Assembly (NCBI GenBank): GCA_039096225.1
Contig: JBBPEB010000024.1
Location: 62,001 to 126,000 of the forward strand
DNA from: Blastocystis sp. Blastoise
Taxonomy: Eukaryota > Sar > Bigyra > Opalinata > Blastocystidae
Direction: 5' to 3'
Length of the DNA stretch: 64,000 nt
Shown here one piece after another: positions 7,972-64,000 of the stretch. A program made the position numbers and the translations under genes. The notes under the pieces were generated by a model. That model was not told where the DNA came from. It made no database searches and saw only the letters and a list, made by a program, of their open reading frames with translations. Numbering within the stretch: position 1 is the first letter of the stretch; each line of letters starts with the position of its first letter.

Positions 7972-8043
7972 GCCTCGATAGCTCAGTCGGGAGAGCGTAT
8001 GACTGAAGATCATAAGGTCCCTGGTTCGATCCCGGGTCAAGGC
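7972..8043 (+). tRNA. tRNA-Phe (anticodon GAA)
   Basis: A 72-nt cloverleaf. Acceptor strands GCCTCGA and TCAAGGC pair except one C-A mismatch at the fifth pair. The D-arm is AGCTCAGTCGGGAGAGC. The anticodon stem TATGA/TCATA encloses loop CTGAAGA, giving T33, anticodon GAA and G37. The T-arm CCTGGTTCGATCCCGGG carries a canonical B-box. A T-run follows within 15 nt (GTAATTTTATTTTT), fitting a Pol III terminator. No intron and no encoded CCA. The 3' 21 nt recur at 18,020-18,040 at the start of a second copy of the neighbouring retrotransposon. Confidence 0.93.
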
Positions 8044-8076
8044 GTAATTTTATTTTTGTTTATTTTTATATAGTCT

Positions 8077-9974: not shown

Positions 9975-10008
<34 letters not shown>

Positions 10009-10312
10009 ATTAACAGAGATACTGACATAAATAGATTTAATAATATTAATAAATTGTCTAACAATAATAATAATAATAATAATAATAATTCTTTAGATAT
10101 TAATTCCTCAACTAATATAAATGAATCTACTAATATTAATAATAATATGATAATAGATTCTTCTTCTTCTGATAATAATAATAATAATTCTACAGATATC
10201 GATATTAATAATACTAGTATATATGATAATGATATTGATTCTACTGATATTAATATTATAGATATTACAGAAGATGAAACAGATGCTATGAATACCTTTG
10301 ATGATCATGAAG

Positions 10313-10393
<81 letters not shown>

Positions 10394-12442: not shown

Positions 12443-12484
<42 letters not shown>

Positions 12485-20010: not shown

Positions 20011-20103
20011 TTTAATAAACAAGTAAGCAATAGTATGAAGTGTTAATATAGGATATAGTACAAAATTCCTTTTAAACAATGAATAGAATTAATGATTAGA
20101 AGT

Positions 20104-27439: not shown

Positions 27440-27642
27440 GAGCTTTGTTTTGTTATTTTATATTTTGTTAGATTTGTATTGTTATTTACTTTTTTTTTCT
27501 TTTTAAACTTACTTTTTGTTTGGTTAAATATTTTTTTATATAAATATAATGAAAATAATAATTTAAATATGTATATATTTTTAAGATAATAATACATATT
27601 TAATTACATTCTTATATAAACTAATTATATGTAATACTATAG

Positions 27643-33600: not shown

Positions 33601-33731
33601 CTTTAAGTAGAGTACGTTCTTTTCATGGTATAAAAATGTTTATAAAGAATGATAATATTAATCAAGGTCAATTAATCAGAAATAGTAATGAATGGTATAC
33701 TAAAAATTGTGGATTTAATGGAGTATTATAA
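27643..33731 (+). CDS. Helitron Rep-PIF1 helicase, with one in-frame TGA
   Basis: Acceptor TATAG at 27,638-27,642 opens a basic exon (KRKQSNSLKRRD) that runs through an Asn-rich region to 28,779. An intron (28,780-28,851) and a second exon continue in phase 1. Helitron-like N-terminal motifs follow (MNHVCIHCEAIHF, CCNNGK, RRYNNAFAFAS). A TGA at 29,298-29,300 interrupts the conserved GP-x-FYRVHG block; the frame then runs to 33,731. Rep motifs are GMPHAHILITL (HUH, about 30,783) and the tyrosine motif KYIFKYAFKG (about 31,205). The helicase has Walker A GPGGTGKT (32,376), Walker B DEAP (32,617), LGGDFRQ, and the C-terminal INKSQGQTF and YVALSRV motifs of PIF1/RecD-like enzymes. It nicks, unwinds and replicates the element by rolling circle. 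The TGA fits TGG or CGA changed by one transition. A downstream ATG (29,340) could give a nearly complete protein. Confidence 0.85.
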
Positions 33732-34017
33732 TTTATTTTGATACTTTCGTATTTTTGTTATGTTTTTTTCGATTTTCTAATTTTTCTTATTTTTCTTATG
33801 TTTTATGAATATTTTTTTGTTATTTTTCTGTTTTCAATGATTTATTTGTTTATTTATTATTTGTTAATAATTAATTCTTAAAATTTATATTGTTTAGTTT
33901 ATAATTCTTTATCATAATTCAAAAATAAATAAATAAATAACAAAGGACAAGAAACAATCTAGTAAATAATAAATATCAGCAAAAACAATTAAATAAAATA
34001 GACTTAATAGACACATA

Positions 34018-34046
34018 GCATCGGCGAAGCCGATGCCACCCGCTAG
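34018..34046 (+). other. Helitron 3' terminus: hairpin plus CTAG
   Basis: 8-bp perfect stem with a GAA loop, 6 nt spacer, CTAG end, and T as the next base. This is the textbook Helitron end and stands out by GC content. Confidence 0.85.
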
Positions 34047-44667: not shown

Positions 44668-46889
44668 TTATGACCATAAAGATTTTAAGTATCGTGTAGT
44701 AAAAACAGTATTAGTTTGAATATCGCTTGAATTGTATGCTCTTCTATTTGAATTCTTAGAATGTATATCTTCCTATAATAATTTAATATAGAAAAATATA
44801 TATAATAATTATATACTTGATTATATTCTTCATCCTCATCTTCACCCTTCCTTTTTATATGTATATCTGAAATAATAATATTATCAGGAATAATCTTATT
44901 GATTATTAAGAATGGAGATCCATATTTAGATTCTATTGGAACAGAATCATTTGAATTATTTATTATATAATATAATCTGCTAACTGATGGTTGTGAAACA
45001 GGGTATTCATGTTTTCTTATAAATACTATATCATTTATTTGAATATAATATAATGACTTTATTAGATGAATTGTATTCACATTTGATATATCTGTTGCAT
45101 TATATGCAATATAGGAGTTATCTAGTGACTCTATTCCTTCGTCTTCCTCTGTACTTGTAAACACTAATGATTCATTGATAAGAATTTCGGAATAATAAAA
45201 AATGGATAATAATTTCAAGTTTTCTTTTAGTTTATTATAAGATGAATTATGATCTAGTAAATCTATATTATTTGTGAGCAAATCCATATTAATATCTTTA
45301 AATAATAGTTGATTTATGGTAGTATCATTAAGTAAAATCAATTCTTTTATAAGATAATATATTTCTTGTTCATTAAGATCTTTCTCCTCTGACTCTCTTA
45401 AACCCTTTACAGAATGAATAAAGCTATTCTCAGCATATCTAATTGTTTTAAATTGTTTATGGGATTGATATTCATTATCATGAATGATATTGGTTTCAAC
45501 ATTATTCTCTAAATCAGCTAACATAGGTGAAGAAATATTTCTATTATTTATATTAGAAAAATCATTAATAAAACAAACTTCTTCTTGTATAAGTTTTTTT
45601 ATACTTGATTCATTAAAACATCTTCTTCCAAATGTTATCCGCTTTATTTTGGAGTAAAAACGTTCTGATTCATATGTACAACCATATAAATATGACCCTA
45701 CTGATTGTATAGAATCAGCTAAATGAAGATGTAGATGTATTTGTGAATTGATAATCTCTCGAGGCAATAAAACTTCACATAAGAAATTAAAAAGATAACA
45801 TTGTTTTCGTAGTATTTCTATATTGTTATTTAACATAAATAATTTATCATATTCAACTTCTCTAATTATTGTAGCTAAAGGATCAATAAGGAGAATAATT
45901 GAAGAATCTTCTATATTGAAATCATGAGTAATAAGAGGTAATATAACTGAAAAGAAGAATATTCTTGTATGCGAAGAAACACATGATATTTTCTTTTTAT
46001 TCATGATTAATCTAAACTCATATTCATATTTATTATATAAAGTATTAAGATTGATTATTCTTGTATTCAAAATATTCATGTTTTCTTTAGACAAACAATA
46101 TTTATTAACTACTTCAACTCCTTCAGTATTACTATCTTTTGAAACTAGTGAAGAGTAATGCTCAGTGTTAAAACCAAATAATAAGGATAGAAATAGAGTT
46201 ACAATATTATTAAATAGGTGCATTGTATCAATGCTGAAACTAGCTGAAATATCAAATAAGGGAATACTTTCAAATGGGCAACATTTCTTTTTGACACCCA
46301 TATATGATTCGTTCTCTTCACATAGACTTCTTTGAGTTCTTATAGTATCCATTGTCCTTTGATTATATTGCTTCATTTCAAACGCATCATTATATATATA
46401 TTCCAGTGGTATTGATTTAATTATTCTTGGTAGAAGACAAGATGTATCTTCTATATAATATGTATATATAGTAACATTTACTATTATATAAAAATGTATA
46501 TAAATGAAACAAAAATAGATATAAATATAGAAGAAACTAATACTAGAAATATATATAAAAATGTTTTTATTATGGATCATGAATATTAAGGAAATATGAA
46601 TTTAAATAATTATAATATCAATAATGGTATACTATACCAACTATTTAAAATATAGAGGCGATATAAGAAAAATTATATGAATAGTAATAACTATAAGATA
46701 TTGAACTACATATGATATTAATACAGATACTAAGGATAATAGTAGTACTAATAATAATATCAGTATAAAGAAGAATAAAGAATAATATATATACTATTAT
46801 GGATAATCAATGGAATATTGAAATAATGATAAAAGTAATATAATATAAATATAATAATATATATTTATAAAAAATATACTAATATAATT

Positions 46890-46959
<70 letters not shown>

Positions 46960-47947
46960 GGATTCTTGATAATTATTGGAAATTTTATTTCATTAATTTG
47001 ATTATTATCATTACTTTTGTCAATAAGATTAGATACACTTCCAAATGAGCATTTAATTCCTTCATGAAAATGTTCGTCTGTTCTTCCTATTTCTAATTCG
47101 CAACATCTACATGGGAAAATAGAAGATGGTCCACTGAAACAACCAATTGCTGTCATAGCGGCATAGTCTCCATATACATTTAATAATATTCCAACAACCT
47201 TTCTTTTTTGTATAGTGTTGTTTATCATTATATCCATTTCTATCCCCTTTGAAAGTTGTTTAAACTCTTCAACTATTATTGACATTATAGGCCAACTATG
47301 ATACTCTGAAGTAATTGCATAAGTCCAAAAAGATCTCTTATCATAATTTCTTTTAATATTATAGTTTAATAGCTTTATTAATAGAGGAAAGGAGGATCTA
47401 TTATAATCTGAAGAAGAATGCGAAAATACTGATATCCCATCACAAGTAAAACTAAAGGCTAAGAAAATATCGCCATTTTCTAGTAATCCTTCAATATACT
47501 TCTTATATGTAATACTTCTTAAAAAAAGAGGAATATCATCTGGAATACTATTTTGATCTGAATTAATTATTGATAATATATCTTCTTTTTTATAAAGAGA
47601 AATATCTTGGATCATTGTTTTTGATTTTAGCATTTGTCTTATCCTTGGTATTATAGGTACAATTGTTATTCTTCTACCTAAATAAACAATAATGCATATC
47701 TTATATATTAAAAATATAATATTATTGTCATACTTGATTTTACCTCACAAATACTATTTGAACAAGTCCTTTTTTCTATTTCAATTGATTCTTTACCTTT
47801 ATTATATCCAAGAATAGTATTACAACAATCTGATACATATATGTTAAGAGTAGAAACTTTATTAGGTACTAATCTTATTAATTTTTGTACTGCCTGTTGA
47901 CCATAAAGAGGAATATCAAATTTATTTATTGATGGATTTATTATCAT
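44668..47947 (-). CDS. CACTA (EnSpm) transposase, Tnp2-type, complete four-exon gene
   Basis: Exons on the minus strand: 47,947-47,734, 47,677-46,958, 46,450-44,817 and 44,772-44,668. Their summed length is 2,673 nt, exactly 891 codons, with phases 1, 1 and 0 at the junctions and a TAA at 44,668-44,670. Exon 1 holds a Cys-rich segment (SDCCNTILG ... CSNSICEVKS). Exon 2 matches Transposase_21: FSFTCDGISVFSHSS (first Asp), PIMSIIVEEFKQL, LLNVYGDYAAMTAIGCFSG (second Asp) and CRCCELEIGR. Exon 3 has PLFDISASFSIDTMHLFNN and, later, REIINSQIHLHLHLADSI and TYESERFYSKIKR, as in the downstream part of animal and fungal CACTA transposases. No stop or frameshift occurs, so this copy may be active. It is the reference for the fragments at 1 kb and 54.5 kb. 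CACTA-type inverted ends were not located. The start codon is the first ATG in frame; upstream exons are possible. Confidence 0.8.
46888..46957. repeat. TA microsatellite inside a CACTA gene intron
   Basis: About 70 bp of pure TA immediately follows the GT donor of the second intron (46,451-46,957) of the transposase gene. It is part of the intron and not coding. Confidence 0.8.
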
Positions 47948-47983
47948 TACTATATATATGAGAATAGGCAAAAAAATTCCCAT

Positions 47984-49389
47984 TGGTCAGTTTTTGGAAA
48001 ATGCATTTGATTGGCTAATGTATACTCAAGTTTGTGTACACAACTCCTCTAAACTTACGGGGAGTTAACTTTTGGTTGAAACACAGTTCAATACGATATA
48101 ACGTGTAGTTTTGCACCGTATATTTGGTTAAGCGATATTATTAATAATTAAAAAGTTATTAATAAAAGAACAGAAAACATGATTTTTGAGTCGTTTTTGA
48201 TTGGCTCTTTGGGATCATAAAGATAAAAATTGTTGACCAGACAATTGAAAAATAAACATGGGGTAAACTTGATTTTTTCTCAATCCCACAATATACGTTA
48301 TCCATGTTTATTCTTTATATTTATCTACTTTTTAATACTTTTTCATATTGAACACGTGAGGCCTTAACGGTCAAATTTAGATTCTCAATTTGACATCATA
48401 TTCTGATTCAGGAGGTCCAAAAACCTAGGTGTAGCGATTTTGAGCTCCTGAGGACGATTTTTGAGTGATCGATATTTTCTTTGATCTTCTTATAATTGAC
48501 TAATATTGTAGTATTGTAATCAATAGGTCATAAAACTACTATAGTAGAAACAAAGTTTTTAAATAACGAGTTTAAAAGTGACAATTTTGAAAAATGTGAA
48601 TTAAGTGGTCTTAGAGTGAGAGATTCAATATAATGACTTTTATTTAATAAACTATAGTTATAACTCCATACTATGTTAAAAGGAGAGTCAAAATTATGAA
48701 GGTCAAAGTGTATGGGCAAATGACAAAATGTGTCTTAAAATGTTTAAGATGTTGACTGTTGTGTTTATTGATCCAGATCAAGTCTACTCTACAAATATTA
48801 ACTTTAACTAACAAGTTAAAGGTTGCCAATTTGTCAAAATGTTTTAAAGGCTGTCTTAAACAAAGAGATTCAAAAAGCGGACTTTCATTTTATACATAGC
48901 ATGTGTATATAAATACTTTATTTAAATAGCTTTAGAAAATATTGTGGATGAGTGTTTTGTCAAATGGTAAAGTTGTATCAAGAGTTGATTGTTTTCATTC
49001 CTTTTTATTTAAATCAATGTTTCATGTCCACTCTATAAAAATAACCTTTTAATGATATGTTTAACACCTCAAAGTCAACATGTGTGTTTGGTTTGTTTAC
49101 TTTTAATAGTTGAAAATCAGTTTAAATCAATAAATCATGTTTTACACATGTACTCTTATTGATTCAAACAATTTAGAGATAATTTATTTGTTTGAGTATA
49201 AATAGATTTGTTCTCATTGTGACTGTTGTTAAGAAGAGGAAGTCTAAAAAAGCTATAAAAAGTTAGATATATATGTTTAAGGTCAAAATTGAAAAGTATA
49301 AATTAAAATGGTTTAAAATAAATTTAAAAAAGAGAATATATATATATATATAATATGTGAATAAAATATTAAAAAATAAAAAAATAACA
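47984..49389 (-). repeat. Degenerate ~244-bp tandem repeat block 1
   Basis: GAGATTCAA occurs at 48,620 and 48,865 (245 bp apart), each in a similar context (AATAT... AAACTAT...). The block ends about 525 bp before tRNA-like copy 1. No coding potential. Confidence 0.5.
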
Positions 49390-49455
49390 CTTTATGTCAG
49401 GAATTGAACCTGAAAACAATCTATATGATTGTTTCTCTCCTTCTAGAGCATAAAA
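49390..49455 (-). ncRNA. tRNA-like sequence, copy 1
   Basis: Minus strand, 66 nt. Acceptor TTTTATG/CATAAAG, D-like arm CTCT-AGAAGG-AGAG, an 8-bp anticodon-like stem AAACAATC/GATTGTTT with a 5-nt loop, and a canonical T-arm TCAGG-TTCAATT-CCTGA (B-box GGTTCAATTCC). The stems abut with no linker nucleotides, unlike a standard tRNA. A T7 run follows within 12 nt. Confidence 0.55.
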
Positions 49456-49496
49456 GGAGTTTAAAGAATAATAATAATTATTATATATATATATAT

Positions 49497-49655
49497 AATA
49501 GGAATGAAGAAGGAAGAAGTAAGAATGAGGAAGAAGTAAGAAGGAAAAGAAAGAAGGCAGAAAGAAGAAGGAAGGATGAGGAAGAAGGAAGAATAAAGGA
49601 TGAGGAAGAAAAAGGAAGAAAGAAGAAAAAAACTAAGAAGATTATTAAACCTATA
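49497..49655 (+). repeat. Short polypurine GAAGAAGG tract
   Basis: Almost all purine on the plus strand over about 150 bp. The open frames on both strands here reflect composition only. Confidence 0.6.
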
Positions 49656-49689
49656 TACAATAGAAAACATATAATAAATAAATAATGAA

Positions 49690-49724
<35 letters not shown>

Positions 49725-49725
49725 A

Positions 49726-49907
49726 CAGCCCCTTCCCTGAGGCCATTTTTTTTTGCTGCGCAGCAATTGTCACAAAAAAATGTGACACTTTTGCTATTTT
49801 TTGACAGTGTAAAAATTTCTTTTTCGTATTCATCAATATTAAGTCTGACTTAAAGTGTCTTTTTGTGACAGTCACAGCAAGTGTCACAGAAGTGAGGGAA
49901 GGCACTG
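49726..49907. mobile_element. hAT-type MITE, copy 1
   Basis: 182 bp with ends CAGCCCCTTCCC and GGGAAGGCACTG, flanked by TAAATAAA on both sides (the flank is itself a TAAA repeat, so the duplication alone is weak evidence). It shares AATGTGACACTTTTG, TTAAGTCTGACTTAAAGTG and GTGTCACA with the copy at 53,489. Confidence 0.75.
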
Positions 49908-49970
<63 letters not shown>

Positions 49971-49999
49971 ATTAATTAATTAATTAATTAATTAATTAA

Positions 50000-50038
<39 letters not shown>

Positions 50039-50040
50039 AC
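49908..50040. repeat. AAAT / TTAA microsatellite
   Basis: Tetranucleotide AAAT repeats on both sides of a TTAA repeat core (about 49,970-50,000). Together with 49,690-49,725 this is one microsatellite into which the MITE inserted. Confidence 0.9.
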
Positions 50041-50749
50041 ATCAAAATAATAAAAATAATAAATAAAATATAAATATATACCTATAAATTAACCTGAAAC
50101 CACAGATTAAAAAGAAAGACATGAAAAAACGAAGACCACAACACATCAACAACATTTTCTTTTCTATAGAATAAAAATAATAATAATATATTGAATAAAT
50201 GATATATAAGCACAAAATAAACAAAATGGATAATAAAAAAAAATAAATAATAAAAGAAACAAATGAATTAAAAAAGAAATACTAAAAAGAAATATATATT
50301 TATATACCTGAAACAAAGTAATCCATTACACACAACCAAGACCACTTCAAGAATCCTTCACTACCACAACCAAGACAAATACAAAAGAATCCTATAGAAA
50401 AGTGTATTATTTTAAATAAATAAATATATACATACAAATATATATAAAAATAATAACTAAACAATATCAAATAAATAAATAAAACATACTCAGTCAATCA
50501 ATATAATTAAATATTTAAAAAAAGAGTAAAGAACTATGTTTTTTGGGTACCCAAAATGATTTTAAATAAGAATGACCCAATTATTACTTTAGTAACAAAA
50601 TCAATGAAAAATTAAGGTTTTTTTTGATTTCTATTATGTTTAAAGAAGCATATTTTGAAAATAGACCCTATTATATTTATTAATACAAATGAAATAGAAT
50701 TCTTAAATACATATTCAAATACTTAATTGTATATTATATTATTAAATAA
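50041..50749 (-). other. Possible minus-strand mini-exons, otherwise AT-rich
   Basis: About 50,308-50,395 on the minus strand reads GFFCICLGCGSEGFLKWSW... between AG and a GTATATA donor in phase 1, and about 50,080-50,160 has a similar exon-like stretch. Both resemble the mini-exon style of the plus-strand locus to the right. Weak evidence. Confidence 0.25.
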
Positions 50750-52280
50750 GATGTCTAAAAACAACAAAATGTCATCCAGGAGGAGGTCTGGAAATAAAAA
50801 ATAATTTATATTTCAAAGAAAATCAGGTATATTATATCTATTTGTTATTATTATTCATATTTAGATTCTTCTACTCAATAAAATCCAGTTATGTATGCTC
50901 TTGGTCTTGGTGGTACTTGCTATGATGGTCTTTAAGGTATATATTTTTCCATTTCTTTTTTTTTTAATTATTTATTATATTATTTTAGGTTCTTCTATGT
51001 TATTTGTATCATACAGAGGTGGTGGTGTTGCCTGTTATGCTAACTGTGAAGGTATGTTGTCAATGATTTGTTTTTATTTTTTTAACTTTTCTTTATTTAT
51101 AGGTTCTTCTGTTGTTTTAAATAATGCTAATGATTCTAATGATGTAGATGTAGGTTCTTCTTATTGTATTGAAGGTATGTTACCAATCATTTATTTTATT
51201 ATATTTTTCTTTTATTATTTCTTTGTATATATAGGTTCATTAGTTGTTGTGCATGTTAACAGTGATGCTGATGATAGAAGTTTGTGTGATGTTAAAGGTA
51301 TGTTGTCATTCATTTATTCTTAATTTTTTACTTTTATATATATAGGTTGTTTTATTGATGTAACTACTGCTGTTGATGTTGTTGGTGATCAGGTAGACTG
51401 CTACTATGGTATTAAAGGTATATATATATTGTCATTCATTTATTATTATTATTTTTTATTATTATTTGTCTATTACTTTTTCTTTATAGGTTCTTTTATT
51501 GCTGTGAGTGTGGTTTCTGAAGGTGTTAATAATTAAGGTAAGTCTTTTTTTAATTTAATTTAGTTTATTATTATTTTTTATTTATATATAGGTGCTTCTA
51601 TTCTGATAGAGTCTTCTATTATAGGTTATGATATAGGTATATTCTTATTTCTTTATTTCTTTCTTTTTAATTTTATTTTAATTTATTAATACTATCTTTT
51701 TCATATATAGGTTGTTCAACTCTGTTATGATATGATGGTTATTCTTTTGTTCTTCTTTAGAAGGTATATATATGTATTTATTCTTTATTCATATATATAT
51801 ATCATTATTATTATCTATATCATTTATTATATGTAGGTGTACCATCTAATTTAGGATACTATCATCATGTGATGATGTGTATTCTTATAAATAGAAATAT
51901 ATCTAAAGGTATACATATATATACATATTATTATTATTATGTATTTTTTAATATATATATCTATATCTTTATCTATATAGGTGATAGTGCTAATAATTCT
52001 TTAATACTTAAAGGTATATATATATATATATATTACATATATTTATTATTGTATCTCTTATATATGTATATATATATGTTTTTTATTTCTATAGGTTCTT
52101 CTGATGTGATAGTATGTAGAAAATGTTTTTTTTTTTTTATTTTTCTTCTTTTTATTTTGCTTATTATTTTTTATTATTATTTACTTTCTTTATATATCTA
52201 TTTATTTAATAGAATACTTTGTTTTGTATATTTTGTTTTGTTCGTATTATTATTTTTATTTTTTATGTGTTGACTATTAA
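50750..52280 (+). pseudogene. Second phase-1 mini-exon gene, decayed
   Basis: ATG near 50,751 starts a basic exon (MSKNNKMSSRRRSGNKK). Exons of 30-75 nt follow, each beginning G|GT after AG and ending at G|GTATRT: for example 50,991-51,052, 51,103-51,175, 51,236-51,298, 51,347-51,418, 51,490-51,537, 51,592-51,637, 51,838-51,908 and 51,982-52,014. All junctions are phase 1. Products include SSVVLNNANDSNDVDVGSSY, SLVVVHVNSDADDRSLCDVK and ASILIESSIIGYDI. In-frame stops occur (TAA in the first exons and in the fifth full exon, TGA near 51,728), so it is probably a pseudogene. The layout of a short basic first exon followed by D-S-S resembles the Helitron ORF1 at 24.7 kb and may be the remains of a related Helitron. 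Confidence 0.5.
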
Positions 52281-52319
52281 GATAATTGTTGAATTACTTA
52301 ATGTTAATAGTATGTATCC

Positions 52320-53480
52320 TTTTAATTTTTATATTTAATTTAATTAAAACATCTATTGTTCGAATTTATTTCGATTAACCAAACCAATGTAATGATATCA
52401 ATGATTTAGTTATTGTTAAGTGTTGAAATTTTCCAATTACTCATATTGCATATACATATTATTGTGTAAATATCAACTCATAACAGTAAGTTTAAGGTTG
52501 TAAATTAAAAAAGTATTATCTTAAAATAGGAGATTCAAAATTCTAAAAAATGTTTAATATACGCTAAGCTGAATTCTAAAACATATTAAAAAATAAGAGA
52601 ATTCTATTTTTCACAAGTGAATTAACAATGTGTTTGAGTTGTTCAGAAATTTTAAAGAGTTAGTCTATTTGTTCAAAATTATGTTTTGGTTAGACTATGA
52701 AAATTATGACTTTTAAAAACAAGTTTAAAGGGGTTGATCTTTTTAAATGTAGAAATGAATTACCCAAAGGACGAGATTCAATATAAAACATTTTGTTTAT
52801 CAAACTATGGTTTATAGTCTAAATTATGTTAAATAGAGGGACAAATATACTCTTGACAAAGTGAATGAGCAAGTGCAAATGATTCATAAAGAGTATTAAA
52901 ATTATTGTTATTGTGTAGATAGAGTTATGTTGAGTATAGTGTTTAAATATTAGGTTTTGAAACTAACTATAAGTGGGTCCACTTTTCAAAATGTGTTAAA
53001 AATAGTCTTTAGCTCAGAGATTCAAAACATTAAATACTAATTAATAAATAACACGATGAGATCTATACTGTGTGAAAGTTATGTCTAAAACTATTTTGAT
53101 ACACTGGATATCGAAATTGTTAAGTCTCTCTAAAAGTAATATTGTTGATACTTTTGTGTATAAGAATGCTATTTAGAATGACTCTAATATTAATTTAAAA
53201 CTATGTGTTTAAGTCGTTAAAATTAAAATGAATGTTAACTTTGTTGTGTTAAAATATGTTTTAGTTTTATGAAATGGTTAAAGAAAGTTTAAGCTATTTT
53301 ATTCTAATCTATTTAAAATGATTTTACGCATAAAAATCTTTTTCAATACTTAACATTCTAATCCATTTCTAAATTTATTAGCTTTAAAAATCGCATAATG
53401 ACTAAAACAGTAAGTTAACTATTTATAAATACAAAATATATTTTAAAAATAATAGATAACAAATATAATGATTCAAAAAA
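52320..53480 (-). repeat. Degenerate ~244-bp tandem repeat block 2
   Basis: GAGATTCAA recurs at 52,530, 52,773 and 53,017, i.e. 243 and 244 bp apart. Context around 52,773 (GACGAGATTCAATATAAAAC) matches 48,620 and 56,286. After removing the MITE the distance to tRNA-like copy 2 is about 530 bp, as in block 1. Confidence 0.55.
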
Positions 53481-53488
53481 GATTTATA

Positions 53489-53680
53489 CAGTGACTTCCA
53501 AAAGGCCCTTTTTTTTGCGGTGCCGCAATTGTCACAGAAAAATGTGACACTTTTGTTAATTTTTGACACTGTAAAAATATTTATTATTATATTAAGTCAT
53601 ATTAAGTCTGACTTAAAGTGACTTTATGTGACTGTCAAAAAAAGTCACCGCAAGTGTCACAAAAAGTCGGGAAGGCACTG
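53489..53680. mobile_element. hAT-type MITE, copy 2
   Basis: 192 bp, ends CAGTGACTTCC and GGGAAGGCACTG, with a perfect 8-bp target duplication GATTTATA at 53,481-53,488 and 53,681-53,688. Internal sequence matches the copy at 49,726. The size, 8-bp duplication and CAGTG-type end place it with hAT non-autonomous elements. Confidence 0.9.
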
Positions 53681-53744
53681 GATTTATATTTAAAAAAATA
53701 TTGTTTTTAGTTTTTCAGATATTATTCAAATAACATATTTTATT

Positions 53745-53810
53745 CTTATATCAGGAATTGAACCTGATTACAATCAATAAATGATTGTTTCTTTCCATAT
53801 AGAGTATAAG
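53745..53810 (-). ncRNA. tRNA-like sequence, copy 2
   Basis: 66 nt. Acceptor CTTATA/TATAAG, D-like arm weak, stem ACAATC/GATTGT with a 7-nt loop ATTTATT, T-arm TCAGG-TTCAATT-CCTGA. If the loop is numbered as in a tRNA, the anticodon would be UUA. Confidence 0.5.
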
Positions 53811-53978
53811 AAGTGCTATTAAAATAATATATAATATATAATATTTAATATATAATAGATAACATATAATAAATAATAGATAATGGATAATAAATAATAT
53901 ATAATATATAATACATAATACATAATATATAATAAGGAAAGAACGTGAATAAAAATCAAACACTTATTATTCATTGCA

Positions 53979-54025
53979 GCCGCGGTCCGGTGCCGTTAGG
54001 CCCCGGACCTGCGGCGTGACCCTAG
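53979..54025 (+). other. Helitron-like 3' terminus A: GC hairpin plus CTAG
   Basis: GCCGC and GCGGC flank a stem GGTCCGGTGCC / GGCCCCGGACC with loop GTTA, then GTGACC and CTAG (54,022-54,025) followed by T. The same layout as the end of the autonomous Helitron at 34,046, and very GC-rich for this region. Confidence 0.6.
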
Positions 54026-54268
54026 TGCTTATTAAAATGAATTTTATAAATTAAAAATACTCAAGAGTACTTCACATTGTGACTCATTTCTGAAGTTATT
54101 GACTTTAAAAACTCACAAAATGTTTAAAACAGTTGTTTAATTATTTATAAATACAAAATATATATTTAAAAATAAATTGTTGTGATGAATATAACTCAAG
54201 ATGTTATTTTTTATTAATAAATAACTTTTTTTCTTTTTTCATTTCTTATTTAAAAAGTCTAAAATAAT

Positions 54269-54334
54269 CTTATATCAGGAATTGAACCTGATCACAATCA
54301 CTTACTGATTGTAACTCTCCATATAGACTATAAG
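54269..54334 (-). ncRNA. tRNA-like sequence, copy 3
   Basis: 66 nt. Acceptor CTTATA/TATAAG, stem TTACAATC/GATTGTGA (8 bp, one T-G pair) with loop AGTAAGT, T-arm as in the other copies. TTTT follows at about 10 nt. Confidence 0.5.
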
Positions 54335-54475
54335 AAATTTATAATATATAATATATAATATAAAATAGATAATTGATAATAAATAATACATAATAAATCA
54401 TAAATAATAAAAATATATAATATATAATATATAATATATAAGATAATAAAAAACTCTTTATATACTCTTTATGCA

Positions 54476-54522
54476 GCCGTGGTCTAGTGCCGTTAGGCAC
54501 TGGACCTGTGACGTGACCCTAG
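54476..54522 (+). other. Helitron-like 3' terminus B: hairpin plus CTAG
   Basis: Stem GGTCTAGTGCC (54,481-54,491), loop GTTA, GGCACTGGACC (54,496-54,506), then CTAG at 54,519-54,522 and T. Compared with terminus A, two stem pairs changed on both strands (TA versus CG), keeping the fold. CACTA coding sequence starts at the very next base. Confidence 0.65.
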
Positions 54523-55476
54523 TATAATAAAAATGAATATGAGTTCAGATATATATTAGATGAAAAGAAATATTATAATATGTCATCACATTCAAGAATC
54601 TTCTTCGTATCATATATACTGCCACTAATAACCCTAGACTTTAGTAATGTTGATTCACCAATAATATTATTAATAGATCCTCTAGCTACAATAATGTATC
54701 AGACATTTTCATATAATGGTAATACTCCCAGCGTTTTATTAAACATATTTAAAGATCAATGTTCTCTGTTCTGTTTTCTTTGTGAACTATTGTTACCAAG
54801 AGAAATTATAAACTCTCAAATTCATCTTATGAAACACTTACATGAAAACAATTATAAATTCAGGATCTTTAATATACTCTTCCACCTATGAATCTGAACG
54901 TTTCTACTCATTTCTTAAACTATCTACTTACGGAAGAAAAAGATTTAATGAATTATGTATTAGAGTAATAATAGAAAAGGAGGTCACTGATATTAACTTA
55001 ACTGAAAATTTAGAGGATATAAATGAAGATAATATAGTAAATAATATATTAATTTCTGAATATAATAATGATAATGAAAATGATTTTATTTTTCGAGAGA
55101 ATATATTTGAATGTTTTAATAATATTTACATTAATCGAGGAGAAATAAATGTAGTAAAGTGTTTGCGTGCTTCTCCAAATATTGATAAATCTGAATCACA
55201 AATAAAGGAAATAATTTATATTCTATTATCATCACCTAATGACTTTGTTAATATGGCACTTCTCCCTAATGTAGATATAAACAGTTATATAAATATTTCA
55301 AGTTGTCTTGAAGATCATTCTGCTTTTCAAATATTGCTTCTAAACTTCAAAAAGATACCTATTGTATTTTACTCAGAAGTATTAATTAATGAAACCAAAG
55401 TATTTTCTTCTTCAGGAGTTGATGAATGTATTGAACGACAAGATAATTCATATATAATGTATAATGGAAAAATGTT
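54523..55476 (+). pseudogene. CACTA transposase fragment, frameshifted and truncated
   Basis: From 54,523 the frame reads YNKNEYEFRYIL, matching YNKYEYEFRLIM in the complete copy, then SSHSRIFFVSYILPLIT, LIDPLATIM, LLPREIINSQIHL. A frameshift near 54,845-54,860 is needed to continue into SGSLIYSSTYESERFYS and on to YYSE-like VFYSEVLINE and ERQDNSYIMYN. The homology stops at about 55,476, where unrelated sequence (GTTAGAAATACCCA, repeated at about 55,529) takes over. The 5' part is missing and not found nearby. Confidence 0.75.
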
Positions 55477-55509
55477 AGAAATACCCAGATTTCCCTATTG
55501 ATTTGTATA

Positions 55510-56769
55510 CATACCCAATTTTTTGTATGATTTGTTAGAAATACCCAAAAATTTCTGTTAACATTTTGATTTCGTTGTCCAATCGTATTAATTTATATAA
55601 TAACCGTGTTTATTAGATGTATTTCAAGAATTTAAATTAATAAAAAATGAAAAGAATAATTCATATTATGACGTTAGGATTTGACTATTTGATCCAATCA
55701 ATCGATTTTTAAGTTTCTATTAGAAGTTCGTCTATTGTACTATATAATTCTAAGAATTTGCTTTTTGGCAATTTTATCTATTTTTATTTATTTATATTCA
55801 TTCCTTATTTTAATCAATATATACATTTATTTTGTTATATAACTTTTATTTATACTATTAATTCAATAAAATAACTTAATAGACAAGGATCATAATATAA
55901 TTGTCTGTAATTGTTTTAAAAAATAAGATTAACAGACAAATAAACCATAAATAGCTATGAAATAAATCTGATTAAAAAGAGTAACCTAAAATTACGTTAT
56001 ATAACATACTTTTAATTTACTTACAAATAAACTAATTCAGCCAATACTTTATATAAGAGCTATGTTTTTATATGGTATAAGTTTATAAATCTTATAAATA
56101 TGATTTTAGTAAATAGAACTTATTTTTTGATAATTAACAGATTTCTTGACTCTTTTAATTTTCATATATATTATTACAGTGTCATGAAAATATTGTATAA
56201 GGACAAATACATAAATATTAATCTTAAATAACTGTTTTAAGAGTATGAACTGTGAATTGATTAAGAAAAATATTTAATAGATGACGAGATTCAAGTTAAA
56301 ACGTTTTGTTTGGTATATGGTATTCGTTTTTCTTTACTATATCAAAAGGACAAATAGTTTTATAATGGATCAAGTAAATGTCGAAATGGAAAATGTTGTT
56401 TAAAAATCATGAATACGTATGTATTGTACTTAGTTGTTTGTATTGAGTATACTGACCAGAATTCAGTTAAAAATAATAAACTACAGTCGTTAAAGTATTA
56501 ATGATTGCTGAATATACTCTGTATTTGAGTATATTTTGAAAATAAAAAATGAATCTAAGTTTTAAAACTGTATTTAACTCAATTCAAACATATTTTGAAT
56601 AAGCTACACTTTTGAGAATAAAACAGATTACAACTCATTTCAGAAACTATGAAGTTTTGAAGGATGAAGAGCTATAAATAATTTAATAAATACATTAATA
56701 AGTGTAAAAAGAACATATAATTAAAACGTTTATTAAATAAAAAAAAATATATATATATATATAGAATGA
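55510..56769 (-). repeat. Non-coding stretch with ~244-bp repeat block 3
   Basis: 55,510-55,950 shows nothing recognisable. From about 55,960 the sequence resembles the other blocks: GACGAGATTCAAGTTAAAAC at 56,283 aligns with 52,770, and the distance from that motif to tRNA-like copy 4 is about 490 bp. Confidence 0.45.
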
Positions 56770-56835
56770 CTTATGTCAGGAGTTGAACCTGATTGTTATC
56801 GAATTATGATAGCCTCTCACCTTATAGAGCATAAG
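56770..56835 (-). ncRNA. tRNA-like sequence, copy 4
   Basis: 66 nt. Acceptor CTTATG/CATAAG, D-like arm CTCT-ATAAGGTG-AGAG, stem GCTATC/GATAAC (one C-A mismatch) with loop ATAATTC, T-arm TCAGG-TTCAACT-CCTGA. Two stem pairs differ from copy 1 with both partners changed. Confidence 0.5.
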
Positions 56836-56969
56836 AGTAATAATAAATAATAATAAAATACAATATTTAATATATATATCTAAAAAAGATGAATCAATAA
56901 TATAGATATATAAATATATACTTATCTCTTTCATATATATTTATCAAATAGAATACATATTACTGTTGC

Positions 56970-57013
<44 letters not shown>

Positions 57014-57239
57014 GAAAAAATTATTTTAATATATAAATTAAATATATAAACAAGAAACATATAAAATAATAAGTATAAATAAGAAATAAAAAGGATAAAA
57101 TCTTTTTATTAATAAAAATAAATACTATATTAATTAGTATAGTAGATAGAAATAGTTTAAATATGGAGAGAAGTATATATATAGATATAAGATGATAAAA
57201 GATAGGAATTGAATATAAAAAAATGAAAACATGAATATG

Positions 57240-58960
57240 AAGAATATAGGAAAATAAATTAGGAAAAAGAAAAATATTAAGTAAATGAGAAGAAGAAGAA
57301 GGAGGAGTTAGTTAATAGGATAGAGAATAAAAAGCATATATATAAAGAAGAAGAATAAGAATAGGAAGCGAGTAAAAAATAAGATAAGAAGGTAAGAAGA
57401 AAAGAAAGATAGATGGATAATAAAAAGTCATGTATAGGAGAAGAAGAGAAAACAGATAGAGAAGAGAGTTAGAAGAAGAACAAGGGAGAATAAATTAAGA
57501 AGGAAATAAAAATATAAGTAGAGTACACATAGGAAGTACAAGTGTAAATGTAGGAAAAAAGATAGTATATGATGAAAGAAAAAGAGTATAAAAGATTATA
57601 TATATATATATATATAATTGATATTATGTGTAATAAATCGAGAGAATATTGAGATAAAGAGGAAATAGATGAAAAGGAATAAAATTAGAATAATATAAAG
57701 AGTAAAGAAGGAGAAGACGAAGGAGAAAAATGATATATAGAGATATCGAAATCGAAGAAGGAAATGATAGAAGAAGTAGAAGAATGATGATAAAAGAAGA
57801 AGGAAGAGTAGGAGGAGGAGGAAAATAATGATATATAGAAGAAGAAGAAGAAAAAGTACATATAGAAGATATAGAAATAGAAAGAGATAGAGATAGAGAG
57901 AAAGAGAATGATAAAATGAAGAGAAGGAGACTGAGAAGGAAAAGAAGGAAAAGAAAGATATATAGAAGGAGAATAAAGAGAAGCATAAAAAGAAGAAGAA
58001 GATACGGAAGAATATGGAGAATAAAGATATATAGAGAAATAATGAACATCAAAATATATAGATAAAGAAAGGTATATTGAAGATATAGAAGAAAAGAAGG
58101 AGAAGAAGGAGATATTTAAGAAGAAGAAAGAGACAAGAAGAAGATACAGTAGAAGAATACTATGGAAAATAATGATAAATAGAGGATACAGAAGAATAAG
58201 AACAATAAATAGAAGAAGAAGAAAGATATATAGAAGAAGAAGCAAAAATAAGATATATAGAAGAAAAACGATATATAGAAGAGGAAAGATAAGAATAAGG
58301 ATATATAGAAAAAATAGAAAACATAGGAGGAGAATGATATAGATAAAATGTATAAGAAGAATAATGGCAAATAGAAGAAGGAATGCAGAGGAAGGATATA
58401 TAGAGAGAAAAAGAATATATATACGAAGGATATATAGAGAGAAAAAGAATATAAAGACGAAGGATATATAGAAGATGAAGGATATATATAAGATATAGAA
58501 GAAGAATAAAGATATATATAAGATATAGAAGGGGAATAAGGATATATAGAAGAAGAGGAAGAAGAAGAGATACAGAAGAGATTGAGAGAAGGAGATTGAG
58601 ATTGAGAAGCAAAAGAATGGTATATACAAGATATAGAAGCATAAGGATAAATAGATGAAGAAGAACGAGTAGGAAAAGAATATTGGAGACAGAAAAGGAG
58701 AAGGGGAATAAGGATATATAAAAGAAAAAGGAATATAGAAAGAACGTCTAGATGAAGAATTAAAAGGAATAGCGAATAGAAAAGTAGAAGTGGAAAGATA
58801 TGAAAAGGAAGTAATGACATAAGAAGAAAATGAAGAAGAACAAGAAGATTAAGATATAGAGGTGGAAATGAAGAGAAGATGTAATTATAGAAGGAGAACA
58901 CAAAAAGGAAAGATAAGAAGAATGTAAGGAGAATGATAAGTAAGAACTAAAGAAAAAAGG
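57240..58960 (+). repeat. 1.7-kb polypurine (GA-rich) tract
   Basis: The plus strand is almost only A and G with scattered T, built from degenerate GAAGAAGAAGG and GATATATAGAAGA units. The long Ser/Ile/Phe/Leu/Tyr-rich frames on the minus strand are composition artefacts: they overlap in all three frames and have no start context or domain. Confidence 0.75.
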
Positions 58961-59125
58961 TATATTATATAATGAAATGTGATATTGAGTAGTATTAATA
59001 GTAGTAACAATTACCCGAATCAACACGATGACTATAAGAAAAATATAAAGTATAACAAAGAAATTAATAAGAATAAAATGGAAAAGAAGGCAAATATAGA
59101 CAAAAAGAAAACCAAATATATATAG

Positions 59126-59167
<42 letters not shown>

Positions 59168-59322
59168 ATATAATTAAAAAAAAAGAAAAAAGTGCATAAA
59201 TTAATATTAATAAAAACTTCAAATAAGTACATAGAAGAAACTAATAATATGTATAAATAGAAATAATTTTCAAAAATTAAGAAATTTATATTATAAAATC
59301 AAAACATAAGAAGTTAATAATA

Positions 59323-59353
<31 letters not shown>

Positions 59354-59470
59354 CATAAAAGAGAAGAACCAAGAATTTAGTGACAAGAAAAGCAAGAACT
59401 AGATTTAATAGCTATATAACAACCTATATAAACATTAATATAATTATATAATTATATTTATATAAAAAAA
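58961..59470. other. AT-rich, nothing recognised
   Basis: Contains TA repeats near 59,132-59,162 and 59,325-59,352. No gene supported. Confidence 0.4.
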
Positions 59471-59479
59471 ATGTAGAAA

Positions 59480-59875
59480 ATATATACATCTAGAATCAGA
59501 ATATGAGTTAAACCAAGTAACTTCAAATATGAATATTTGAATTGTAGATGTAGTGATTATGTGAATAGATCATGATTCTGTATGATTCAAGACAAATCTG
59601 TTTAGACATTTGACCAATTGATTTTTTGAAAGTTTCAAGCAACGCTCAGTTAACATAGCCAAGCATTTCCCACTCATTGATAAAACCTAAAGAAATAGTT
59701 TTATATGGTGACGTCACATCATCCCATTTATAACCACGACACAATAGCTGACCATCTAGTACAACCACTTTACATCACCTAGATTAGCTCATAATAGAGA
59801 AAGAGAACATACCAGTTTAGATCAATCTGCCAATGGAGACTGGAAGGTACTCTAATATACTCCTAGGGACTATAT
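59480..59875 (-). pseudogene. Coding-like minus-strand segment with one TGA, unidentified
   Basis: GC is clearly higher than in the flanks. One frame reads VVVLDGQLLCRGYKWDDV, then TSPYKTISLGFINEWEMLGY and VN, a TGA, then ALLETFKKSIGQMSKQICL and further to about 59,490. Upstream, after an AG, a short piece reads VPSSLHWQIDLN before a GTATGT donor. A CGA-to-TGA change would explain the stop. No family recognised. Confidence 0.35.
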
Positions 59876-60875
59876 ATAGATAGATATATGCTTAGAACAT
59901 ACAAAAGCTAAATTAATCATATTTTTTATATGATTATTGAAACTTCACTATAAATTAACTTATTAAAAATTATTAAAATCCTAATATTTCTACTTTTTAT
60001 TATTAATTATTTTATTTAAATAGTTTAATCAGTTATTCTCACTCCTGATGTCTTGTTGTTGTTATTGGAGTATGTATTTAAGTAAATAAAATTAGTTAAT
60101 TGATTAATTATTTATAGAGTGTTGAATAAAATAAAATTGATGCTTCTTGTCATAAGGAAATCGTTAGACTTGATGAAGACAACAAGAATTAGTTGATTAT
60201 GTGATACTCACTAGATTGTCTAAATGTGTAAAATTGTCAGAAATGATGAGTTTATGTGTGTTTGAATTTGAATTCTACATTAATTAAAATACGTCTTTTA
60301 GTAATTAATTTAATTTTAGGGAAGTTACAAACATAATTGATTTCTCTTGGTGATATGTTGAGATAGAATGCCTTTATTATGAATTTCTATTAATAATTTA
60401 AATTTAATCATGACTCGTATAAGCCAAAGTTGATTATAATAGTTTTTTAGGTAATGTAAATTTGTTAAGGTTCTTCAAAAGTTTTTAAAGTTGGTTAGAA
60501 ATGATTCTTAGTGTCAATCATATTAATATAAACAGTAGAAATGCCTTTTAAGAGTATAAACAAATAATGTATTGCGTGTTTATAGACTTCAAGATATTAT
60601 TGATGAATATTTATTTTTTATTTGTGTGTAAAATTGATGAATAGGATACATAACTCAACAAAATAATGACTAGATAATTTTGGGTGATTGTAATTAATGA
60701 ATGTGTTTGGTTTTAAGTAAAGGTATCTAAAATTATTATAAAAGAGCGACTAACGACGTATAGAGTTGATTCAATTGCATGAAACTCAATGTATTTATTC
60801 ATATTGGTTCTAATGAATGAGAATACCTATAGGGAAAAAACATTTAAATTTTTTTATAAAAAATATAGTATACAA
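59876..60875. other. Non-coding stretch before tRNA-like copy 5
   Basis: Composition and word use resemble the 244-bp repeat blocks, but the diagnostic GAGATTCAA motif is not preserved (nearest GTTGAGATAGAATG at about 60,358). No gene supported. Confidence 0.3.
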
Positions 60876-60943
60876 CCTTAGATCAGGAATTGAACCTGAT
60901 AGCAATCTATTAATGATTGCTACTGACCATATTCAGTCTAAGG
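60876..60943 (-). ncRNA. tRNA-like sequence, copy 5
   Basis: 68 nt and the best-folding copy: acceptor CCTTAGA/TCTAAGG (7 perfect pairs), D-like arm CTGA-ATATGG-TCAG, 8-bp stem TAGCAATC/GATTGCTA with loop ATTAATA (T33, apparent anticodon UAA), T-arm TCAGG-TTCAATT-CCTGA. A T6 run follows about 12 nt on. Confidence 0.6.
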
Positions 60944-60962
60944 AATATTAATTATATGAATA

Positions 60963-60995
<33 letters not shown>

Positions 60996-61713
60996 TTGAA
61001 GAAAAGAGACTATAAAAATATTGTAATTATATATATATATACTCTATTACACCTATTAATACTAACCTAAATAATAAAAACATGTAGAATAAAAAGATTA
61101 TTTCAATATACAATAGAATATAATGTAATTAAGAATAAAGTTAAAAATAGAATATTAGCAAACAATATATATAATAAATATATACAATATATACTATCTA
61201 TATTAAGTTGTATACGAACATAGAAGATAAGCTAAAGATACGTTCTATATATAGATTAAAAAAAAATTAATATATATATAAATAAAATAAACACATTATA
61301 TTGTTATAATAGAAAATACTACATAGCAAGCTATATAAATATAAATAAAATACATACAAAAGGATTGTATACATTATTTGTAATAATTCATAAAAGCTGA
61401 TTATAGACTATATATATAAAATGAATGAATAAGACGGCATGAATTAATTAAGGGAATACCAAGTCTATATATATATATATATGAATATATACATATATGT
61501 AATTATGAGAAAAATATATATATAAAGTAAAAAATATATATATTTAAATATAACATAGGAACATATTATGTATATGTATTAAAACAATTAAAATACATAC
61601 TCTTTACGTAGAATCTATTTAATATCTTCACAAACTATATATATTAATAATAGTACACTATAGTGAGTATAAATGTATATAATAGAAAAGAAAGCTGGAA
61701 AATATAAAGAAAA

Positions 61714-61756
<43 letters not shown>

Positions 61757-62639
61757 AGAAAATAAGGTTTAACATAATACAAAAGTAAATCATTCAAAAC
61801 AATTATATATATCCTTAATCCTATATATAATAAAAATGATATTAGTATAGTATTATAAACAAAAAGAAAATGTAGTATACATAACACTAAGTGTATATAT
61901 AATTAGTATCAAAATAAATAGATAATATATATAAAAGGAGATAAATACAAAGTATATATATTATCATAGAAAATATACTAGTATAATTGAACAAAAGAGA
62001 TAAAAAGAAGAGTTATTACTGTTACTACATATATATACATAATTAACTATAAACAAATTATATTATAAAATGATAATACATAATATAGTTATAGAAAGAA
62101 AAAGTGATATAAAAGAATAAAATAGAAGAATAGTTGAGATAAAATTATATATACAAATAATATTACCTTTTGTGTCAATTATAAAAAATGTATTATATAT
62201 ATAATAAGATAAAAAGACTATATACTTAAAAACTCATGAGAAAAATAAAAGGATAACTGATATATTACTATATATAAGTCTATAAGTTTATATTTATATA
62301 ATAAGTATATATAAAAGTATATATATAATATATTTATATATACCTTAAATACATAAAAATAATGTAGTAATAGAACTAAAGACCACTATATATAGATAAT
62401 TCTTCATTATTCTATTTATATATAACTTTGACTTTGATAAATAATATATATATATATATATAAAGTTTAAGAATAAACAATTGATATGAACTGATTCTAG
62501 TATATATTATCAACTTCCAAAATAAAACATATATCAATTTTCTAAAGAGTATATATTTGGTAAATATATCTGTGAATATGTTATATAGAGAGAAAAATGT
62601 ATAAAATAATAATATAAAAAGAATACAATAAAAGTCTAT

Positions 62640-62726
<87 letters not shown>

Positions 62727-63760
62727 TTCTTCAACTAAAGCAACATTCGTATATTTATATAACACCTATATAATATATATATGTAATTACAGTTTTACTA
62801 GTTATATTTTTATATAACTAATAAAACTATAGAGACATGAATAACAGAAATATAAACAATAGGATATTATTAGTAATTATAGGTACATAATATAAATTAT
62901 ATAAAAAAAATAAAAAATTATTGTACGGAAAATAGAATAATATATAAAAATAATGTGAAACAATATACTACAATAAAACAATTACTTACATATAAAAACT
63001 ATATACCTTAGATATAAAAATTGATGACCATGAAGTTTATAACATAAGGGAAACGTCACATTCTCTATATAAAAATACTAGTTAATATATAAATATATAT
63101 ATATATATATTAAGAAGTAATAGAAAATAATATGCTAATAATTAAATATATATATAATATACCTAGTCACATAATAGTATTGATGTAGAGAAGCTAATGA
63201 GTACATAGCTTAATAATACTATATATATGAATAAGAATAAAATATATCGAAAATAAATAATACATATATATATATATAAACTATAATAAAAGAATGATAA
63301 TTAATAGTCCTATATAGAAAAATAATATAATAAATTAATAAAATATTAAGAATTTATAAATAATAAAAATATATATATATATATTTGAACCATATATCAA
63401 TGTTAGAGCCTCAGTTATAACAAAAATAAATAACTACAATATACAAATTTAATTAAACAAATATATATAATTTTAATAATATAAAAATAAAAAAATATAT
63501 ACTTTTTAGCCATATTCTTCTAGTATTTTTTTTTGTATATATAACCATATCAATTTACTCCATATATCTATAGAAAAAAATAATTATTTAATATATTTAT
63601 ATACTTTTAAGGACTCGATAATTGTGCTGAAATCGAAAAGTTACAAAAATTCCAAAACAATAATCACTTGCCATTTCTATATAATTAGATACAATATAGC
63701 ATTAATAACATAAATATATACTTCTGATAAAAAAATAAAATAATAAAAATCAAAAGAAGG
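60944..63760. other. Very AT-rich non-coding stretch with TA microsatellites
   Basis: No gene supported. Long TA runs at 61,720-61,754 and 62,643-62,723. Frames here translate to Ile/Tyr repeats only. Confidence 0.5.
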
Positions 63761-63764
63761 ACCT

Positions 63765-63985
63765 AGACATCAATTTTCTTAGTAGATGGAGACCAATTAC
63801 TTTTTTCTTTTGAATTTCCTAAATAAATAATTAAATATACAAACAAAAAACAAAATAATATACCACTAGAACATACACCAAAGAATATTCTTAAAGAGAG
63901 AAATTCCGATCATTGCGTTTTCTTCCAATATTGTAGCCAACTCCACCGGGCTCTCTAAATCATGTTTCTAAACCTATATAAATAA
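63765..63985 (-). other. Coding-like exons at the right edge
   Basis: GC rises. A minus-strand segment ends CCSSTKK-like: reading after a TTTAG acceptor gives NSKEKSNWSPSTKKIDV and TAG (stop at about 63,767), preceded across an intron (about 63,821-63,863) by SLRIFFGVCSS. Farther right, FREPGGVGYNIGRKRNDRNF is open in a different frame. The pieces do not join cleanly, so gene structure is uncertain. Confidence 0.25.
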
Positions 63986-64000
63986 TGGTAAATCAAATAA

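Follow-up and report, generated by a model that had tools for sequence, protein, structure and literature searches.

Five short cloverleafs resembling transfer RNAs (tRNAs) lie on the minus strand of a 64,000-nt window of the Blastocystis sp. Blastoise genome (the window being the whole stretch of DNA analysed, part of contig C23 in a 33.3-Mb, 34-contig genome), and the locus raises the question of whether they are tRNA genes and what carries and preserves them. The beta-tubulin encoded in this genome is identical to a Blastocystis sp. Blastoise protein, a match that ruled out the fungal host first guessed from inspection of that tubulin. On balance, we favour the interpretation that they are tRNA-mimic RNA modules integral to the Helitrons of this organism and working via tRNA-processing enzymes. 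The parts of this interpretation differ in strength: copies 1-3 are almost certainly borne by Helitrons, selection on the modules very probably acts at the RNA level, and processing by tRNA enzymes is put forward tentatively as the mechanism.

Fold and conservation of the cloverleafs

The T-arm was found on the minus strand at 49397-49413, 53751-53767, 54275-54291, 56776-56792, and 60883-60899, four times exactly and once with a single mismatch; 100 shuffled windows gave a mean of 0.15 matches and a maximum of 2. The five cloverleafs are real, beyond chance, and scored between 73 and 92 bits (Table 1) with a covariance model built partly from these same copies. The other window matches to that model reached 24 bits (opposite strand of copy 3) and 9-12 bits (three matches). 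The original prediction had described five such folds with an almost unchanged T-arm, and its structural details were recovered as well. The D-like arm reads CTCT/AGAG or CTGA/TCAG, the latter in copy 5; in the anticodon-like stem A-U is replaced by G-C in copies 4 and 5 and by U-A in copy 4; and the acceptor ends TATG/CATA, TATA/TATA, and TAGA/TCTA are all present. With a 6-bp acceptor, copies 2-5 have the predicted length of 66 nt, and copy 1 has 64 nt. The anticodon-like stem of the five window copies comprises 8 bp and closes on a loop of 5 or 7 nt. Copies 1, 2, 3, and 5, folded singly, gave significant structures (z scores of -2.8 to -5.0), and the middle stem of copy 4 contains several mismatches.

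Comparison with ordinary tRNA genes demonstrated that the stems of the modules abut directly: nucleotides 8-9 and the variable loop are missing, as had been claimed, and so is nucleotide 26. Anticodon-like loops measured 4-7 nt and varied in their letters, in place of the 7-nt loop and stable anticodon identity of a tRNA. None of the five copies matched the Rfam tRNA model, even at E values up to 5, and the sole window sequence above the gathering score of that model was a tRNA-Phe at 7972-8044. ARAGORN labelled copy 3 as tRNA-Leu and copy 4 as tRNA-Ile and left the other three uncalled. An ochre-suppressor tRNA was considered, UUA being readable as the anticodon in the B types, and was ruled out by the variable loop. 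Weak Rfam matches (the 5' untranslated region of plastid ycf2 on the opposite strand of copies 2 and 5, mir-297, and STnc130) were taken as chance.

For the covariation test, we aligned 18 distinct cores taken from 20 distinct 79-nt stretches; the two omitted stretches differ from kept ones in the flank only. The cloverleaf was scored without linkers, as an acceptor of 7 bp, a D stem of 4 bp, a middle stem of 8 bp, and a T stem of 5 bp (24 pairs in total), and both shuffled and slid alignments served as controls. Pairing was observed in 94.9% of 430 cells. Changes on both sides occurred at 13 of the 24 pairs (shuffles, 6.5; slid controls, 0-3). The number of further pair types was 22 (15.1 in shuffles, 5-11 in slid versions). 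None of the 500 shuffles reached the observed value of any of these measures. The count of pair types is the safer measure because inherited copies are not counted in it. The five T-arm pairs never vary and are therefore uninformative on pairing. On the tRNA-sense strand, there were 10 G.U cells vs 3 A.C cells. Measured against shuffled and slid controls, the wider alignment thus showed the excess of covariation expected if, as originally proposed, selection maintains a fold that is not that of an ordinary tRNA.

Conservation of the T-arm was also examined in relatives of copy 5 that had been found by their flanking DNA alone, without the T-arm. The exact 17-mer with the T-loop, AGGTTCAATTCCTGATC, adjoined all 25 of the body matches that reached the module end (25 of 28 matches were kept and 3 dropped), and in 18 of these relatives the body was merely 76-85% identical, that is, 15-24% diverged. 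Random decay of the T-arm in other copies, named in the original prediction, together with absence of any transcript, as a sign against it, was therefore not seen where examined. The copy-5 relatives form a few subfamilies, in which there are perhaps three or four independent lineages; 6 of the 31 listed 17-mer sites had no body match.

The D-loop GG and the T-loop TTCAA were invariant in 18/18 copies. Judged from the alignment, constraint keeps the acceptor/T-arm stack, the D-arm, the long middle hairpin, and the letters GG of the D-loop and TTC of the T-loop. Between copies 1 and 2, the core was 88% identical (shuffled null, 66%), with flanks at or near the null. Many genomic copies are identical over the core and hence recent, and since copies 1-3, at least, are internal to Helitrons, part of the similarity reflects recent shared ancestry.

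Elements carrying the modules

Homologous units containing copies 1 and 2 begin with TCATTACTAT..AATAGGCAAA and finish with a GC-rich hairpin followed by CTAG (Table 1). Insertion occurred between A and T: A ended 22/22 distinct left flanks, and T opened 25/25 distinct right flanks, in a sample consisting of the window and of loci fetched via the T-arm, the hairpin, or tubulin. Mean identity outside the ends was 36% on the left and 42% on the right, and inside them 95% and 84%, the inside control counting overlapping loci more than once. The three hairpin variants (DNA fold z scores of -3.5 to -5.8) lie 9-10 nt before the element end, and the stems of element variants differ by compensatory changes. 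The family to which copies 1-3 belong, designated A/B, has the 5' TC, the 3' CTRR, the insertion between A and T, and the hairpin near the 3' end that characterize Helitrons. Of the second fragment, which contains copy 3, the 3' end alone was located.

About 0.3 Mb of the genome was read as sequence, and each list of pattern positions covers up to 100 places. The T-arm occurs at least 327 times in the 33.3-Mb genome with up to 2 mismatches, and the reversed pattern once; the 3' hairpin has 112 sites under the same tolerance. Of the 44 3' hairpins listed on contigs C1-C13, 38 have an exact antisense T-arm no more than 1 kb inside the element (100 of the 112 hairpins were listed genome-wide). 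The 89 exact T-arms listed on the same contigs include 23 same-strand pairs 4075-4566 bases apart and 3 opposite-strand pairs at 3.9-4.6 kb. In the A/B family, the distance from the 5' end to the first module is 1.45-2.4 kb in the loci read, mostly about 1.95 kb; the second module is 0.2-0.7 kb from the 3' hairpin, and about 4.1-4.6 kb separate the two. The modules of this family thus occupy regular places, antisense to the transposon. The 4.2-kb pairs had raised the suspicion of long terminal repeats ending in tRNA-like sequence; this was excluded, as the members of a pair are of different types and Helitron ends appeared. A further 41 dispersed T-arms have the form ACAGG..CCTGT (36) or ACAGG..CCTGG (5) and may represent either ordinary tRNA genes or a separate tRNA-like family.

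Table 1. Features of the window and autonomous elements elsewhere in the genome (slashes mark element boundaries)
Feature	Position	Strand	Remarks
Non-autonomous Helitron, 6.1 kb, with copies 1 and 2 antisense	47944..54025	+	A/TC and hairpin-CTAG/T boundaries common to many genomic copies; flanks diverge abruptly
Helitron 5' terminus, TCATTACTAT...AATAGGCAAA	47944..47972	+	A before the junction in 22/22 distinct left flanks
Sequence adjoining copy 1, with repeat of ~245 nt carrying GAGATTCAA	48583..49300	+	Repeat also beside copy 2
tRNA-like copy 1	49389..49456	-	A type, 1.45 kb from Helitron 5' end; 84.4 bits
tRNA-like copy 2	53743..53812	-	B type, ~0.2 kb from 3' hairpin; 88.2 bits
Helitron 3' terminal GC-rich hairpin, then CTAG/T	53976..54025	+	DNA fold -19 kcal/mol, z -5.8
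tRNA-like copy 3	54267..54336	-	Within second Helitron fragment; 84.8 bits
3' terminal hairpin and CTAG of second Helitron fragment (ends 54522)	54473..54522	+	Stem shows compensatory changes relative to the first
Repeated element bearing copies 4 and 5	55448..64000	+	Left boundary within 55448-55466 (possible TC); right end past the window
tRNA-like copy 4	56768..56837	-	A position, different repeated element; middle stem partly degenerate; 73.2 bits
tRNA-like copy 5	60875..60944	-	B position, 4107 bases from copy 4; 92 bits; fold z -5.0
Autonomous elements, 5' end-module-Rep-3' end, 11.4-12.1 kb	~C10:16538-28612, C1:398857-410936, C1:140590-151980		By coordinates of parts

Copies 4 and 5 belong to a different repeated element, in which they are 4107 bases apart; the spacing of copies 1 and 2 is 4354 bases. 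When positions 54530-64000 were used as a query, five near-identical further copies spanned query positions 921/937-9471 and another did so in two pieces, among the 20 candidates scored out of 1379. Genome matches numbered 28 for the DNA beside copy 5 and 40 for that beside copy 4, many of the latter short, and the two kinds of flanking DNA co-occur at similar spacing in many copies. A very long purine-rich tract lies on the plus strand to the right of copy 4 (57200-59000; GC skew up to 0.5), and a shorter one lies to the right of copy 1 (49500-49650).

The motif GAGATTCAA starts at 48620 and 48865 near copy 1, at 52530, 52773, and 53017 near copy 2, and once, at 56286, near copy 4. This shared repeat of about 244 bases suggests that module and neighbouring DNA may have been duplicated together. 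Two related short elements near the modules of the Helitron (~49727-49908 and 53489-53680), with ends like CAGTGCCTTCC, are by eye probably miniature inverted-repeat transposable elements. At 50865-52340, on the sense strand of the Helitron, there is a chain of small exon-like units, several of which start with GTTCTTC, with GT..AG spacers; it may encode a repeated-peptide cargo protein.

A Rep-bearing autonomous partner was found for the A/B family, its Rep being matched by sequence and its helicase part being presumed. The Helitron protein in the window (29301-33731; Helitron_like_N and PIF1) belongs to another lineage than the carrier of the copies. A search with its Rep region gave 51 genome matches, namely 16 at 97-100%, 13 at 50-51%, and 22 at 39-49% identity. 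From the last group 21 matches were used, one 61-residue fragment being dropped; they have 45-49% identity, lie in open frames of 1165-1571 aa, and in 21/21 cases are followed 2.76-2.87 kb downstream by a sister hairpin ending ACCCTAGT. Of the 12 elements of this ~45% type on contigs whose exact T-arms were listed in full, 10 are preceded by an antisense module no more than 12 kb away; in 7 of these the distance is 5.7-6.3 kb. Three more, on contigs listed in part, have a TGACT-class site at 4.4-4.5 kb, which is antisense in two and not in the third. Judged by the coordinates of its parts, the lineage of ~12-kb autonomous Helitrons has members that carry the 5' module (Table 1). The region 27585-34046 contains the other-lineage Helitron of the window, delimited on its 3' side by its own hairpin and a CTAG/T end at 34020-34046; its lineage comprises the 16 genomic Rep copies at 97-100%, several of them in an open frame of >1600 codons.

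Mechanism and alternative explanations

Under the proposed interpretation, the modules would act as RNA, transcribed from the antisense strand. The transcript would adopt a tRNA-like elbow in which acceptor and T-arm stack over 12 bp; such a stack with its elbow is the part of a tRNA recognised by RNase P and RNase Z. These enzymes may recognise the module in the same way. Cutting there would free a small tRNA-like RNA and would give the antisense transcript of the element defined ends, as in MALAT1, where the transcript end is defined by processing of the tRNA-like mascRNA.

Several observations weigh against this interpretation. The set of 18 distinct sequences is modest, shared ancestry within subfamilies inflates the covariation counts, and the excess of G.U cells is small, corresponding by our own estimate to about 7 vs 3 independent changes. 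The single folds of copy 4 and of the genomic copies L011 and L013, among 7 copies folded, were no better than many shuffles (z scores of -0.8, -1.7, and -1.6). In distant pairs, the advantage of the core shrinks to 68-82% vs a null of 66-70%, and it is barely above or at the null between L011 and L013 (72% vs 68%) and between copy 4 and L011 (68% vs 69%). The first 100 nt upstream exceed the null in some pairs (81-88% vs 73-75%, in gappy AT-rich alignments). The contrast between core and flank is therefore a weaker test than the covariation and the 17-mer. No exact module was present within 1 kb of six of the 44 listed 3' hairpins, and 2 of the 12 autonomous elements have no antisense module upstream, only same-strand ones. 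For the elements on C6 and C7, a first-type hairpin lies beside the nearest module, so that the module is probably a neighbour's. In the other two Rep lineages, an antisense module at up to 12 kb is mostly missing (1/7 and 0/2 have one on fully listed contigs), and an association with them was dismissed on these counts; Helitrons as such therefore do not need the module. On other contigs, a TGATC-class site on the same strand precedes two Reps of ~51% identity, by 6.4 and 7.2 kb.

The B box and the tRNA elbow share the letters that have been kept, and pairing survives elsewhere; we therefore read the pattern as RNA-level selection, with binding of RNA polymerase III (Pol III) or of its factor TFIIIC as the main rival. 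According to this rival, it is the DNA sequence that acts, the A and B boxes binding TFIIIC and either driving a short Pol III transcript or insulating the transposon from silencing. The B box GGTTCRANTCC does score 10/10 in 18/18 copies, but the A box is less convincing: it reaches 7/8 in four copies (copies 1 and 3, L007, and L014; 2.4% of shuffles reach 7), and 6/8 in eleven (as do 25% of shuffles), and in copy 5, L011, and L013 it falls to 5/8, which is the chance level (mean of shuffles, 5.1). Termination signals are similarly divided. Of 17 representatives, 11, among them each of the four A types tested, have a run of five or more T within 40 nt downstream; such runs are missing in five B types and L013, and control runs of five or more A in the same stretches were found in 9/17; T4-T5 runs also interrupt the module itself in the A types, L011, and L013. 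Moreover, promoter boxes need no compensatory changes in the acceptor and middle stems. We consider control by Pol III unlikely as the explanation of the modules.

The other alternatives appear weaker still. A passenger short interspersed nuclear element (SINE), that is, a short tRNA-derived retroposon that entered Helitrons and multiplied with them, would explain the constraint by its own past activity. Such SINEs are common, the modules occur in several unrelated contexts with between-family flanks mostly at or near the shuffled null, and the 41 additional T-arms are dispersed. We nevertheless consider this origin improbable: inspection of copies 4 and 5 by eye revealed neither a SINE body nor a tail nor target-site duplications, two element families show the modules in one orientation and at similar spacing (4107 and 4354 bases within the window), and the 17-mer is exact in diverged copies that multiply as part of a larger element. 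A cloverleaf formed by single-stranded DNA in the displaced strand could instead aid end recognition or termination during rolling-circle transposition, in keeping with the closeness of the 3' module to the terminal hairpin. However, the loops are invariant as well as the stems, the 5' module lies far inside the element, and the wobble pairs point to the complement of the strand that Helitrons are known to transfer, so that we give this idea a slim chance, even though PMC10701932 speculates that a tRNA within a Helitron-like repeat of a plant has such a role. Least credible of all, in our judgement, are functionless decayed tRNA genes spread by recent transposition: two of the five copies are named as tRNAs by ARAGORN and many copies are recent, being identical over the core, but neither the covariation, nor the intact 17-mers, nor the failure of the Rfam tRNA model to match is then explained.

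Other features of the window and relation to known systems

The normal tRNA-Phe of the window ends 29 bases before a stop-to-stop frame of 2685 codons with a reverse transcriptase domain, and the region 7972-16131 looks like a retroelement placed beside a tRNA gene. At 18813-20042, the minus strand carries a gene for a DDE_3 transposase that is probably related to Tc1/mariner. The open frames at 44685-46601 (-) and 54523-54891 (+), which flank the Helitrons, have motifs such as LLIDPLAT and LPREIINSQIHL in common and matched no Pfam family. Elsewhere in the genome, contigs C9 and C12 contain mirrored tRNA gene clusters, probably parts of an organelle genome present twice.

The elements described here resemble known Helitrons in their A/TC 5' end, CTAG/T 3' end, terminal hairpin, and Rep/putative helicase in the autonomous lineage, but differ in carrying, in this family, one or two structured tRNA-like modules per element, antisense to it. 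Helitrons are known for the capture of pieces of protein genes. With MALAT1/mascRNA the modules have in common the tRNA-like fold, the acceptor/T-arm stack, the elbow letters, and no role in translation; the difference is that here they lie in a protist transposon and that their processing is predicted. Like tRNA-derived SINEs, they combine a B box with a tRNA-like head in many genomic copies, but neither a body nor a tail was visible on inspection of copies 4 and 5, and they have a regular antisense place in a DNA transposon. Among the matches listed in open-licence literature, none described a Helitron with a built-in tRNA-like module, in Blastocystis or elsewhere. The closest case among them is the Arabidopsis tRNA-Cys cluster, which, according to PMC10701932, likewise represents a tRNA sequence within a Helitron-annotated repeat. 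Its genes are tRNA-Cys-GCA, whereas the Blastocystis modules are abnormal as tRNAs, and both Helitron ends and an autonomous partner are seen with them. In the Arabidopsis study, three Helitron predictors found no reliable Helitron overlapping Arabidopsis tRNA genes, and the repeat, if Helitron transposition was involved, would be the first non-coding RNA captured by a Helitron (PMC10701932).

In conclusion, the evidence leaves it evenly balanced, in our view, whether, in this Helitron lineage, a tRNA-mimic RNA that is obligate and often paired is a functional component, serving in processing, protection, or control of transposition, which would be the first structured non-coding RNA shown to be integral to a Helitron and selected there. 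If true, an RNA module selected for its fold and kept at a regular antisense place in several diverged lineages would mean that a DNA transposon uses structured RNA. Hundreds of T-arm copies, several subfamilies, and a ~12-kb autonomous element in one assembled genome make this idea directly testable.

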